Part shown: positions 1 through 4,998 of the stretch, piece after piece
How the letters are laid out: each line of letters begins with the position of its first letter
How positions within the stretch are numbered: position 1 is the first letter of the stretch
IMG/VR virus record: IMGVR_UViG_3300044858_000338
Span: 1-30,126 of that record
Reading direction: 5' to 3' (one strand)
DNA length: 30,126 bases
Source: a virus
Notes under the pieces: generated by a model
Databases searched by the model: none
Told to the model about the DNA's origin: nothing
The model's input: the letters and a program-made list of their open reading frames with translations, nothing else
Translations under genes and position numbers: made by a program

Positions 1-598
1 ACCGTTCCTTTGCCGTCATGGCATTGGCTACGGCGATGTAAAGGTCGTGGTCAGGGTTGACGAGTTCGTGGACGGCCAGCACCGCTAATGCGATGTCGTA
101 CTCGTCGGCGTCCATGTCAAACGCAGCGCGGAACTGGTTAACGAAGATATCCCGTTTGGCGGGGTCTACGTCCTGCCCTAGATCGCCCCTAGGATCAACG
201 GTGAGGGGCTTACGGCCTTGGGCTACCTCTGCGTCATCGTCCACCTGTGCAAGCCCCACAATGGCCGCTAATGCGTAACGGCGGGCATAGGTGATGCCAG
301 AGCCTTGCCCCTGCGGGCTGGCGTCCTTGGTCAATACTGGCATCTGCCCTGCGATCCACTCGCCCGAGGCGTGAGCCAGCGTCGTGACTAGCATCAAACC
401 TTGCTCAGTCATCTGCGTGGTCTGGATCACCGACAAGCCGTTAGCGGCTAACTGCTTACGACAAGCGTCCCAACACGACGCAAGGTCGGCGTATTTGCTT
501 TTAAAGAACGGGTTGCTGCTGTCTTTCAGCGCACCCGTGATGTCGGCTTGGGCTTTGCTCAATGCGGCGGCCAATGCGCCTATGGTTTCACTCTGCAT
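1..598 (-). CDS. ERF-family single-strand DNA annealing protein (3' end cut by window edge)
   Basis: 199 residues are visible and no stop is reached. The N-terminal two thirds match the ERF (essential recombination function) family: LSKAQADITGALKD, then NPFFKSKYADL, a GLSVIQT segment, HASGEWI, and GSGITYARRYALAAIVG followed by an acidic DDDAE. In this family the protein anneals complementary single strands and supports recombination or genome circularisation in phages. The start is the ATG at 598, set by AAGGAGAGAGAAG just upstream; it overlaps the end of the preceding mini-gene by 11 nt, so translation is probably coupled. It is the last visible gene of the leftward early cluster. The family call rests on recognised motifs; the C-terminal part, often variable, is only partly present. 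Confidence 0.9.
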   Translation of the reverse strand, partial: MQSETIGALAAALSKAQADITGALKDSSNPFFKSKYADLASCWDACRKQLAANGLSVIQTTQMTEQGLMLVTTLAHASGEWIAGQMPVLTKDASPQGQGSGITYARRYALAAIVGLAQVDDDAEVAQGRKPLTVDPRGDLGQDVDPAKRDIFVNQFRAAFDMDADEYDIALAVLAVHELVNPDHDLYIAVANAMTAKER

Positions 599-716: not shown

Positions 717-828
717 GGGCTGCTCGCTCCTCTGCCGGGGTACAGCCGCCGTCGCCGCACGGGTCAAGGATGGCTGCTGTGGCGTATAGCACTACAAGCA
801 GGATGGCTTGAGGTAACCAGCGGCTCAC
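706..828 (-). CDS. 40-aa single-span membrane peptide, unknown
   Basis: A GTG-started frame whose start overlaps the stop of the upstream gene as GTGA, with GGGGAG eight nt before it. The product begins MSRWLPQAILLVVLYATAAI, a good hydrophobic span at residues 4-21, followed by a short Cys-containing segment (DPCGDGGC) and a charged tail. It resembles a small inner-membrane or lipoprotein-like peptide, but there is no clear lipobox. It lies between a 92-aa soluble protein and the 42-aa protein in the early unit. Function unknown; existence is inferred from the overlap, the binding site and the clean hydrophobic segment. Confidence 0.5.
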   Translation of the reverse strand: MSRWLPQAILLVVLYATAAILDPCGDGGCTPAEERAAHAR

Positions 829-1103
829 AGGTCGTCTCCCCACGGGCCGTTCATCAGCGCGTCGTTGGTGGCGATTTCTTCAAGCTCAAAGATGGCATCT
901 GCACCGAGGTCGCAAATGTCTAGCTTAATGTCGTGGTTAAGGGATGCGGCAACCTTGTCGTTATCCAAGAAGATGCCGATCAGGTCGGCAGCCTCAAGGA
1001 TGATGCCGCCATCTAGGTCTTGGGTGTACTCCACGCGCACCTCAAACTTGTTGCCGAGGGCGTAGAACGTACCGAAACCGTGGAATGTGTCTTTGCGTGG
1101 CAT
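825..1103 (-). CDS. 92-aa conserved-looking early protein, unknown
   Basis: The protein starts MPRKDTFHGFGTFYALGNKF and has a beta-rich first half (FEVRVEYTQDLDGG) and an acidic C-terminal half (ICDLGADAIFELEEIATND). I choose the ATG at 1103 because AGGAGC lies 8 nt upstream; the longer frame from 1133 would begin upstream of a binding site and overlap the promoter. It is the first gene of the transcription unit driven from 1138-1165, which carries the shared dyad operator, so it and the downstream 40-aa, 42-aa and ERF genes are probably controlled by the Cro-like protein. No family recognised. Confidence 0.7.
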   Translation of the reverse strand: MPRKDTFHGFGTFYALGNKFEVRVEYTQDLDGGIILEAADLIGIFLDNDKVAASLNHDIKLDICDLGADAIFELEEIATNDALMNGPWGDDL

Positions 1104-1137: not shown

Positions 1138-1165
1138 ATTTTACCAAAGTTAACAAGCAAATCAA
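1138..1165 (-). promoter_or_regulatory. Early promoter with dyad operator in the spacer (unit 825-1103 to ERF)
   Basis: On the minus strand: TTGATT (1160-1165), a 16-nt spacer, then TAAAAT (1138-1143). The 14-bp dyad TTTAC-CAAA-GTTAA (read on +, 1140-1153) fills the spacer and overlaps the -10. The geometry is the same as at 1791-1818 and 2179-2206. A protein on the dyad would block polymerase. Confidence 0.75.
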
Positions 1166-1752
1166 TAGTACGAACTCCAATAACGTTCTTTGTAAACCGG
1201 CTTGCCGCTGGTCATCGTTATCGGCTGTTCGTAATACGCTGTCGCACTCTGGTGAATCTTTACGCTTGGCGAGCCACCCACCATGCTGACTCGTCTTGAA
1301 AACGCTTCGCCAATGAACATGCCGGGCATCGGCTTGGTTTTGCCGCACAAGTACCCTTCTTCTTCACGGCTTTGGGCAATTTCTCGTAACTCAACCGTTT
1401 GGCCGCAAACACTTACAACTTCGTAATACTCAACATTGGTTTGCTCATAACCCCAACTGGTTCGGAACACTTCGCCGCCAACCAGTTTGTGAGGCGCAAA
1501 TCGGGCCTTGCGTCGCTCCGCCACCATCGCTTTGTGAGCTTCTAAACTTTCCACTTGGGATTTGATTTTTTCGGCTAACCGTTCAGCAGAACCAAAAATG
1601 TAATGCCATAACGGCTTGGCCGCTCTACCAGCAAACGCCATCGCAACAATCTTGCCGCGAGCAACGCTTTCGTGGGTGTAAACCACAAACTCCGTGGCTT
1701 CGTGAATGTAATGCAGCGAGTAGCTGGCCGGGATATGTCGTTCTTTCTTCAT
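1162..1752 (-). CDS. 196-aa conserved hypothetical early protein
   Basis: I recall proteins of this type in phages and plasmids but know no assigned function. Seen in the sequence: an N-terminal segment FVVYTHESVARGKIVAMAFAG followed by KPLWHYIFGS, a basic helix at about residues 56-88 (AHKAMVAERRKAR), then the motif SWGYEQTNVEYYEV at about residues 99-112 and a C-terminal region rich in Tyr and Ser. The start at 1752 is supported by AGAGAGG eight nt upstream. It is a one-gene unit with its own promoter and operator at 1791-1818; the promoter for the next leftward unit overlaps its 3' end. No membrane segments or catalytic signature that I can name. Confidence 0.75.
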   Translation of the reverse strand: MKKERHIPASYSLHYIHEATEFVVYTHESVARGKIVAMAFAGRAAKPLWHYIFGSAERLAEKIKSQVESLEAHKAMVAERRKARFAPHKLVGGEVFRTSWGYEQTNVEYYEVVSVCGQTVELREIAQSREEEGYLCGKTKPMPGMFIGEAFSRRVSMVGGSPSVKIHQSATAYYEQPITMTSGKPVYKERYWSSYY

Positions 1753-1790
1753 TTCAAGTACCTCTCTGTGGTATCAAAGTCAACAACGCT

Positions 1791-1818
1791 AGTTTACCAA
1801 GGTTAATACACTTGTCAA
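1791..1818 (-). promoter_or_regulatory. Early promoter with dyad operator in the spacer (196-aa gene)
   Basis: Minus strand: consensus -35 TTGACA (1813-1818), 16-nt spacer, -10 TAAACT (1791-1796). The dyad TTTAC-CAAG-GTTAA (1793-1806, read on +) lies in the spacer and overlaps the -10. It is 41 nt upstream of the ATG at 1752, matching 37 and 41 nt at the two sister promoters. Confidence 0.8.
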
Positions 1819-2141
1819 GCCGTTTTGGCAGGAAAATTCAAATATTTAAACATTTTTATTTCCCGCTCCAACGCCTCACGCGAACAACTAAAGTGCTGGT
1901 GGACTTCGCTATAAAACACCAGCAACGGGATTGCCATTTCGCAATCCTCCTCCCACCATTGCGGCTTGGGAGCATACAAACCGGGGATCGGCTTAGCCCA
2001 TTCGGGCAACTGCGCTTGGCGTTCGGGTGACAACCAGATGCCGCCGTGACCAGCCGTAAATACTTGAACAATGCCGGGGGCTAAAACTTTTTGCTTTTGG
2101 ACAGCGCCCCAAGGCGAATACTTAATGACTGACTCTTTCAT
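1815..2141 (-). CDS. DUF7007-like early protein
   Basis: 108 residues starting MKESVIKYSPWGAVQ. The core TAGHGGIWLSPERQAQLPEW, followed after about 20 residues by WWEEDCEMAIPLLVFY, resembles the DUF7007 domain (GHGG...LSPER...EEDC.WAI), which is found in phages, plasmids and conjugative elements with no known activity. The C-terminus is a short basic helix. The start at 2141 is chosen over the upstream ATG at 2165 because AGAGGTTGAT precedes it and the upstream one lies in the leader. It is the first leftward gene, divergent from the Cro-like gene, and is transcribed from the operator-containing promoter at 2179-2206. The family name is from memory of the motif, not a search. Confidence 0.7.
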   Translation of the reverse strand: MKESVIKYSPWGAVQKQKVLAPGIVQVFTAGHGGIWLSPERQAQLPEWAKPIPGLYAPKPQWWEEDCEMAIPLLVFYSEVHQHFSCSREALEREIKMFKYLNFPAKTA

Positions 2142-2178
2142 ATCAACCTCTCTATGGTTAATCACTATCTACGGTGCT

Positions 2179-2206
2179 ATGTTAACACAAGTTAAGTATC
2201 CGTCAA
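2179..2206 (-). promoter_or_regulatory. Early leftward promoter with dyad operator in the spacer (DUF7007 gene)
   Basis: Minus strand: TTGACG (2201-2206), 16-nt spacer, TAACAT (2179-2184). The dyad TTAAC-ACAA-GTTAA (2182-2195) is the most symmetric of the four copies (perfect 5-bp arms). Predicted start of transcription near 2172 gives a leader of about 31 nt. Confidence 0.8.
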
Positions 2207-2243
2207 TGGCAGATAGGTACATATTTCGCTATGTAATTTCTGA

Positions 2244-2272
2244 TTGCGGCAAGACGTAACCAAAGTTAACAT
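2244..2272 (+). promoter_or_regulatory. Promoter and operator of the Cro-like gene
   Basis: TTGCGG (2244-2249), 17-nt spacer, TAACAT (2267-2272). The fourth dyad copy, GTAAC-CAAA-GTTAA (2256-2269), fills the spacer and overlaps the -10. The -10 ends six nt before the ATG at 2279, so transcription would start at or very near the start codon: a leaderless mRNA. Autoregulation is the natural reading. Confidence 0.7.
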
Positions 2273-2278
2273 ACGAAA

Positions 2279-2446
2279 ATGGACATACAAACAGCATTAA
2301 AAGTTTTCGGTTCACCCGCAGGAATTGCCCGAGCGTTTAAGGTGACAGCGCCTGCTGTATCCCGCTGGATACGGAACGGCAAAGTGCCGCAACAACGGGT
2401 GTGGCAGTACAAGGCTGGGTTAGTCAAAGCGCCAAAAGGACGTTAA
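2279..2446 (+). CDS. Cro-like helix-turn-helix regulator, 55 aa
   Basis: A 55-residue protein beginning MDIQTALKVFGSPAGIARAF. Residues 12-22 (SPAGIARAFKV) and 23-34 (TAPAVSRWIRNG) form the two helices of a helix-turn-helix, with the pattern FG...IA.AF.V...AVS.W typical of small Cro/YdaS-type phage repressors such as P22 Cro. The C-terminal residues are basic. There is no ribosome binding site; the ATG lies six nt after a -10 box, so the message is probably leaderless. Four copies of one dyad (2256, 2182, 1793 and 1140) lie in the spacers of its own promoter and three leftward promoters, so it most likely represses all four. It could instead be an antitoxin-like or CII-like regulator, but size and context favour Cro. 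Confidence 0.85.
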   Translation: MDIQTALKVFGSPAGIARAFKVTAPAVSRWIRNGKVPQQRVWQYKAGLVKAPKGR

Positions 2447-3942: not shown

Positions 3943-4998
3943 ATGGCCGCGAAACGTGACCGTTTGGCTGCCGTTTTGGCTTATATGGACGAAAAAGCCA
4001 AAAGGTTTGCAAGCTTAAATCAGCCTCAATCGACGGACACGGCTGATGTTGCATTGGACATTGCAGCCGGATTTACGCCGCTGCAATACCCACAGGCGGC
4101 GCGAGATTTTGAGCGATCACGACGAACCGGCGACAAGCTCGGGCAATTACTAGCTGCCGCAGGCGCAATTCCTGTTGTCGGTGGCATCCCGAAAGCCGTA
4201 AAAGCAATTGATAAAGCTATTGAAACGCGATATTTCAAGCGGTTAGACCAAGATTACGAAGGATTAAAGACCGAGTACGCCACCCGTCCTGATAGTTTCG
4301 GCGGCAAAGTTTTAAACACGGACGTTGCACGGGAATTGTCGCCAGAATACTTGGCAGACCGCACAAAGTCGGCAGACGTACATGAGCCATCAAGCTCGTT
4401 CATTAAGAAACTTTATGCCGAGCGCCTCGCCCAACCGACCCCGCCAGATAAAGACCCGGTGGTGTTGTTTACCGCTGGCGGTACAGGCGCAGGCAAAAGC
4501 TCTGGTCTAACTCAGCTCCGCAAAGCCACGCCGAGTTTGAATCGGGTAGAGCTGGAATACGACACCAACATGAATGGGTACGAATCCAGCAAAAAGAAAA
4601 TTGACGAGGCACTCAAATCAGGACGCCAAGTGCAAATTGTGTTCACCTACCGCGATCCAGTAGAAGCATTAAGTCGAGGCGCACTTACTCGGGCAATGCG
4701 ACAAGAAGGCGAGTTTGGAACAGGTAGAACGGTGCCGCTGTCAGAGCATTTGAACACCCACATCGGTGCGCGTAGCACGATGGAACGTCTTGCAAAGGAC
4801 TACGCTAACAATCCTAAATTCAATTTAACCGTCATTGATAACAGTCGGGGCGAAGGCAACGCTGTTGTGTCGTCATTGGACAATTTACCCAAGTTAAGCG
4901 AAAATAAGGTGCGGAATGAATTACGAAATGCCCTTGAACAAGCTAGAAACGAAAAGCGCATATCCGAAAAAGTCTACCGGGGCTTTGCCGACTACTAA
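3943..4998 (+). CDS. Zeta-toxin-like P-loop kinase with extra N-terminal domain
   Basis: 351 residues. The C-terminal half has a Walker A loop TAGGTGAGKSSG (Lys185) after the strand PVVLF, an acidic residue Asp207 in VELEYDTNMN at the position of the zeta catalytic base, FTYRDPVEA (Arg237) and GRTVPLSEHLNTH (Arg262), an order typical of zeta/PezT-like kinases, which phosphorylate UDP-N-acetylglucosamine or other small substrates. The first about 165 residues are different: a charged start, DIAAGFTPLQYPQAARDFE, then a Gly/Ala/Val stretch AAAGAIPVVGGIPKAV (71-86) like pre-toxin linkers or membrane-active segments. It sits between DUF5856 and a 59-aa gene that overlaps its last 83 nt. An internal role such as DNA handling remains possible; no epsilon-type antitoxin is seen. 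Confidence 0.7.
   Translation: MAAKRDRLAAVLAYMDEKAKRFASLNQPQSTDTADVALDIAAGFTPLQYPQAARDFERSRRTGDKLGQLLAAAGAIPVVGGIPKAVKAIDKAIETRYFKRLDQDYEGLKTEYATRPDSFGGKVLNTDVARELSPEYLADRTKSADVHEPSSSFIKKLYAERLAQPTPPDKDPVVLFTAGGTGAGKSSGLTQLRKATPSLNRVELEYDTNMNGYESSKKKIDEALKSGRQVQIVFTYRDPVEALSRGALTRAMRQEGEFGTGRTVPLSEHLNTHIGARSTMERLAKDYANNPKFNLTVIDNSRGEGNAVVSSLDNLPKLSENKVRNELRNALEQARNEKRISEKVYRGFADY

Follow-up and report, generated by a model that had tools for sequence, protein, structure and literature searches.

The DNA analysed here, hereafter the window, comprises positions 1 to 30,126 of the IMG/VR virus record IMGVR_UViG_3300044858_000338 (30,126 bp). It holds a short cro-like gene from which genes for VRR-NUC, DUF5856, Zeta-like, terminase and structural proteins follow rightward, and from which a leftward arm runs through a DUF7007 gene and genes without assignment to an Erf-like annealing protein gene (Table 1). 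Family searches gave no match for leftward gene 3, and the Erf-like gene probably shares the leftward early transcription. In one relative (L021) the leftward arm extends to SSB, NinB, HNH and ferredoxin-like genes. DNA and protein searches of the window sequence against named phages returned no match for the Cro gene and the early region. The Zeta-toxin-like protein (3943-4998; PF06414, E 1.5e-14) is encoded shortly 5' of the terminase genes. A leader string, ACCAYAGAGAGGT, recurs around the Shine-Dalgarno sequence of genes on both strands (2141-2160, 1752-1775 and 2815-2832).

Table 1. Genes, promoters and predicted operators around cro in the window.
Feature	Position	Strand	Detail
Erf-like ssDNA annealing protein	2..598	-	truncated by window edge; phrog_2324, E 2e-37
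Leftward gene 3	825..1103	-	no assigned function; ATG at 1103
Leftward promoter 3	1138..1165	-	TTGATT-16-TAAAAT
Operator (predicted), leftward gene 3	1140..1153	.	TTTAC-CAAA-GTTAA
Leftward gene 2	1162..1752	-	phrog_37844, no assigned function
Leftward promoter 2	1791..1818	-	TTGACA-16-TAAACT
Operator (predicted), leftward gene 2	1793..1806	.	TTTAC-CAAG-GTTAA
Leftward gene 1	1815..2141	-	DUF7007 domain, PF22653, E 3e-22; ATG at 2141, Shine-Dalgarno GAGAGG
Leftward promoter 1	2179..2206	-	-35 TTGACG 2206-2201, 16-nt spacer, -10 TAACAT 2184-2179
Operator (predicted), leftward gene 1	2182..2195	.	TTAAC-ACAA-GTTAA, perfect
cro promoter	2244..2272	+	weak -35 TTGCGG 2244-2249, 17-nt spacer, -10 TAACAT 2267-2272
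Operator (predicted), cro's own promoter	2256..2269	.	GTAAC-CAAA-GTTAA, imperfect upstream half
cro, Cro-like repressor gene	2279..2446	+	55 aa; P22 Cro family

The initial annotation had reported four 14-bp dyads beginning at 1140, 1793, 2182 and 2256, and all four are present there. Its consensus, TTWAC-N4-GTTAA, describes the first three exactly and the fourth with one mismatch (GTAAC). Each dyad lies in a promoter spacer with one edge overlapping the -10 hexamer, as had also been claimed, and in most promoters, in both directions, the -10 starts at dyad position 12 (offset +11). The proposed 16-nt spacers are exact in the three leftward promoters of the window and range from 16 to 18 nt in relatives, and the distance of 37-41 nt to the start codon is correct if counted from dyad edge to ATG (41, 41 and 37 nt for promoters 1, 2 and 3; from the -10, 37, 38 and 34 nt).

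Perfect copies of TTWAC-N4-GTWAA occur at four places in the window (1140, 1793, 2182 and 4884), compared with a mean of 0.11 and a maximum of 2 in 100 dinucleotide shuffles. With up to one mismatch, five dyad starts fall inside 1150 nt, and none of 100 dinucleotide shuffles of the window held more than three. At two mismatches there was no enrichment (42 in the window against 33.8 in shuffles), so the signal is confined to the strict form of the dyad. Only L005-L011, the close clade of the window, have a counterpart of the 1140 operator at the corresponding position. We rejected 4884-4897 as an operator: this copy is internal to the coding sequence of the Zeta-toxin-like protein and is confined to the window's clade.

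The 55-aa protein belongs to the P22_Cro family by its Pfam profile (PF14549; 31.9 bits against a curated cut-off of 30.2), and falls below the cut-off for the YdaS toxin family (PF15943; 26.3 bits, cut-off 30). Its predicted structure (mean pLDDT 84) is an all-helical Cro fold of four helices with a helix-turn-helix, in which the recognition helix spans residues 24-33 (TAPAVSRW at 23-30). The closest fold matches were N15 Cro (Z 6.4; rmsd 1.7 over 49 residues) and P22 Cro (Z 5.7), with Xfaso 1 Cro also matched; the scores are modest, as expected at 55 residues, and the top matches were Cro proteins throughout. As in a Cro-type system, predicted operators overlap the early promoters of both arms, including that of cro itself. 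We consider it very probable that the protein is a repressor of the P22 Cro family which would bind the dyads as its operators and repress from them. A regulon of cro and two to three neighbouring early genes is well supported by comparison across relatives.

Viral contig searches yielded 43 close relatives and additional distant ones, and after removal of redundancy loci were grouped by recognition helix: group A (..AVSRW, 24 loci), group B (..A[IV]S[QL]W with R two positions ahead of A, 46 loci) and group C (..AVQLW, 4 loci). In groups A and B the cro operator lies at -23 to -10 and the -10 hexamer at -12 to -7. Within group A the dyad stands at -23/-22 of cro in most loci; in the exceptions (L028-L031, L033, L100 and L101) the nearest site is at -48/-49. 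All 74 loci of groups A-C have the -10 of cro ending exactly 6 nt before the ATG and lack a Shine-Dalgarno-like sequence. Because of this short gap and the missing Shine-Dalgarno sequence, the cro mRNA is predicted to be leaderless, for which the cro mRNA of PY54 provides a measured precedent (PMC4488713). The cro operator is also the more degenerate one, with a mean of 1.42 mismatches against 0.29 for the first leftward operator in group A, and 2.22 against 0.80 in group B; in both groups the degeneracy is in the upstream half, and the first leftward operator is almost perfect. Since the cro operator is weaker by sequence than the leftward ones, this suggests that the leftward genes are repressed ahead of cro. 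Three points go beyond the initial annotation: cro is predicted to be leaderless, its own operator is the weaker one, and no CI partner was found.

It could be argued that the locus is a lysis-lysogeny switch whose CI-type partner was missed by our searches or lies in an unsequenced part: P22 Cro is the protein of a temperate phage, and two named phages with relatives of the Cro-like protein, Flu_PA14_4 and MPK9, have a CI-like gene divergent to cro. The gene divergent to cro in the window, however, encodes DUF7007 and is not of CI type. Thirteen contigs of 29.5-37 kb gave no match to integrase (PF00589), resolvase (PF00239) or an S24 CI-type repressor; these contigs were called linear and may be incomplete, so the missing families are not proof of absence. 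HTH_3 matches in the same 13 contigs were weak and below cut-off, nearly all at or near the Cro gene, and apart from one weak match in a 640-aa frame there was no sign above noise of a further HTH_3 regulator. Among 84,980 genomes of bacteria and archaea, peptide patterns also detected no prophage with the Cro-like protein. We therefore regard a switch as unlikely. As neither a CI-type repressor nor an integrase was found, the circuit looks like Cro without CI, and is best interpreted as early-gene shut-off with negative feedback.

We searched the three groups for dyads in an unbiased manner, using 1,024 five-base half-sites with spacers of 0-12 (13,312 word/spacer combinations). The top dyad in group A was TTAAC-N4-GTTAA, with 47 matches in 24 of 24 loci (1.0 in shuffled sequence), and in group B it was TTAAG-N4-CTTAA, with 63 matches in 39 of 46 loci (0.8 in shuffled sequence). 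The two dyads have identical 5-4-5 geometry and differ by one base per half-site. Once this fifth half-site base is specified, strict counts of TTAAC against TTAAG sites are 68:0 in A and 2:68 in B, and the strict dyad is missing in 6 of the 46 group B loci. Conservation of the dyad in promoters of relatives that keep cro had been set beforehand as a check, and the dyad was found upstream of cro in all 24 group A loci. A scan of the whole collection with the strict promoter-plus-dyad pattern gave 16 matches. As a positive control, the annotated OR and OL regions of P22, whose Cro helix reads S-Q-W, hold TTAAG-N4-CTTAA. Pseudomonas phage Flu_PA14_4, with a Q-type helix (RPSAVTQW), carries TTAAGACAGCTTAA between its annotated CI-like repressor and Cro-like genes. 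Because the dyad word tracks the helix class at constant geometry and position, this clade-wise covariation speaks for recognition of the dyads by the Cro-like protein itself.

The covariation has limits. Each of groups A, B and C forms one clade in the tree, so the A/B specificity change is essentially one evolutionary event, and since helix positions 1, 2 and 6 differ jointly, the responsible residue is not isolated. Groups C and D gave no clear TTAAS dyad. Five further named phages whose Cro proteins are weakly similar (PdC23, Kp4865-4, GB2A, MPK9 and P52) showed no dyad of the TTAAG/TTAAC kind, so the helix/operator rule does not hold throughout the wider family. Group C (L107-L112, AVQLW) apparently has another dyad, approximately AGGCT-N4-AGCCT, between the divergent promoters upstream of cro. 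We did not count this dyad, or L113 (helix HKW, site GTAAC-CCAT-GTTTC), as independent tests, as they are too few.

Dyads also occur at promoters other than that of cro, and the 5-4-5 plan is shared by FNR-type boxes, which would fit a host regulator or another phage protein that reads the dyads and has the Cro-like gene as one target among several. Such a reader would not explain why clades with different Cro helices have different site words, P22-like helices going with the P22 site. A contig carries only a few exact sites, which in 13 group A contigs lie near cro except in the window's clade; together with the lack of a second HTH_3 regulator noted above, this makes another reader highly improbable. 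That the dyads are a by-product of -10 and spacer preferences, bound by no protein, is scarcely credible: one half-site does overlap the -10, which AT-rich TAAC/TTAA strings fit, but sigma70 makes no such demand on the spacer where the upstream half-site sits, the AAC/AAG core of that half is kept (-20/-19 in A; -21 to -19 in B) around a mostly free 4-nt centre, and the dyad counts in both groups far exceed those in shuffles. Conservation of the -10 half-site is partly expected from promoter function alone.

Under regulation by the Cro-like protein, the leftward early promoters and the cro promoter would fire at the onset of infection, leftward transcription leading to the DUF7007 gene and towards the single-strand annealing and recombination genes. 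A dimer of the protein would put one recognition helix in each TTAAC/GTTAA half-site. With the -10 overlapped by the downstream half-site and the spacer filled by the remaining dyad, the bound protein would be expected to exclude RNA polymerase. As its concentration rises, it may close the leftward promoters first through their near-perfect operators, and lastly its own leaderless gene through the weaker operator.

The window resembles P22 in the Pfam family and closely similar predicted fold of its Cro, in 5-4-5 dyads with a TTAA outer part (P22 OR3 and OL1 contain TTAAG-N4-CTTAA) and in operators within the early promoters of both arms. It differs from P22 in that its half-site ends in C (TTAAC) and not G, its helix reads S-R-W and not S-Q-W, each promoter has one operator where P22 has three, cro is predicted to be leaderless, and no CI gene was found in its lineage. 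N15 Cro, solved with operator DNA, is the closest solved fold, but the telomere phages N15, PY54 and phiKO2 are temperate and have a CI/CB partner. PY54 Cro has one operator and apparently leaves its own promoter unrepressed, whereas the window has a site in each early promoter. The best sequence matches among solved structures, Xfaso 1 Cro and XPH1, have 73-79 aa, compared with 55 aa for the window protein; the first comes from a prophage and the second is an engineered hybrid.

The four dyads of one metagenomic phage thus extend to a predicted regulon that a large group of phages shares (some hundred relatives were compared), and that marks out the early, Cro-controlled genes. On balance we favour the view that a widespread, apparently non-integrating lineage of metagenome phages carries a solitary, leaderless and autoregulated Cro without CI, and that in the wider family a helix change from S-Q-W to S-R-W, with neighbouring positions, goes along with an operator change from TTAAG-N4-CTTAA to TTAAC-N4-GTTAA. 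If true, the paired change is a natural test of the Cro recognition code, and the many natural protein/operator pairs, which differ by one base in the operator and by a few residues in the helix, make Cro recognition rules directly testable. It also suggests that Cro may persist as a simple feedback repressor where CI and integrase are not found.

The region 3' of cro showed several further features. Between cro and the next gene is a gap of about 386 nt (2447-2832) without a convincing gene. Its RNA fold has a z of -2.2, with 5 of 100 shuffles equally stable, and it is possibly a structured RNA; relatives have it swapped for at least two other versions, and Rfam gave nothing above gathering scores near cro and in 2447-2832. 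The partial dyad at 2538-2551 (TTTAGTCCTGTTAA), which precedes a leftward TTGACA-16-TAAACT match, was not accepted as a further operator: it is unproven as such, its G at position 5 is off consensus, and it is a probable RNA hairpin, because relatives carry paired arms there (AGTCC/GGACT, GGACT/AGTCC and similar). Downstream of that promoter match (2563-2536) is a strong GC hairpin (2463-2483) whose T-rich tail is present only on the minus strand, and the two could yield a small leftward RNA of about 70 nt. Directly 3' of cro, 2482-2511 reads as a promoter-like TTGACG-N18-TACGCT, and its hexamers are conserved in 22 of the 24 group A loci, in the window and in all four group C loci. Its spacer holds a GC-rich inverted repeat whose arms covary between phages (TGCC/GGCA, GGCAG/CTGCC, GGTTG/CAACC, GACTC/GAGTC and others), so that the pairing, and not the sequence, seems to be under selection.
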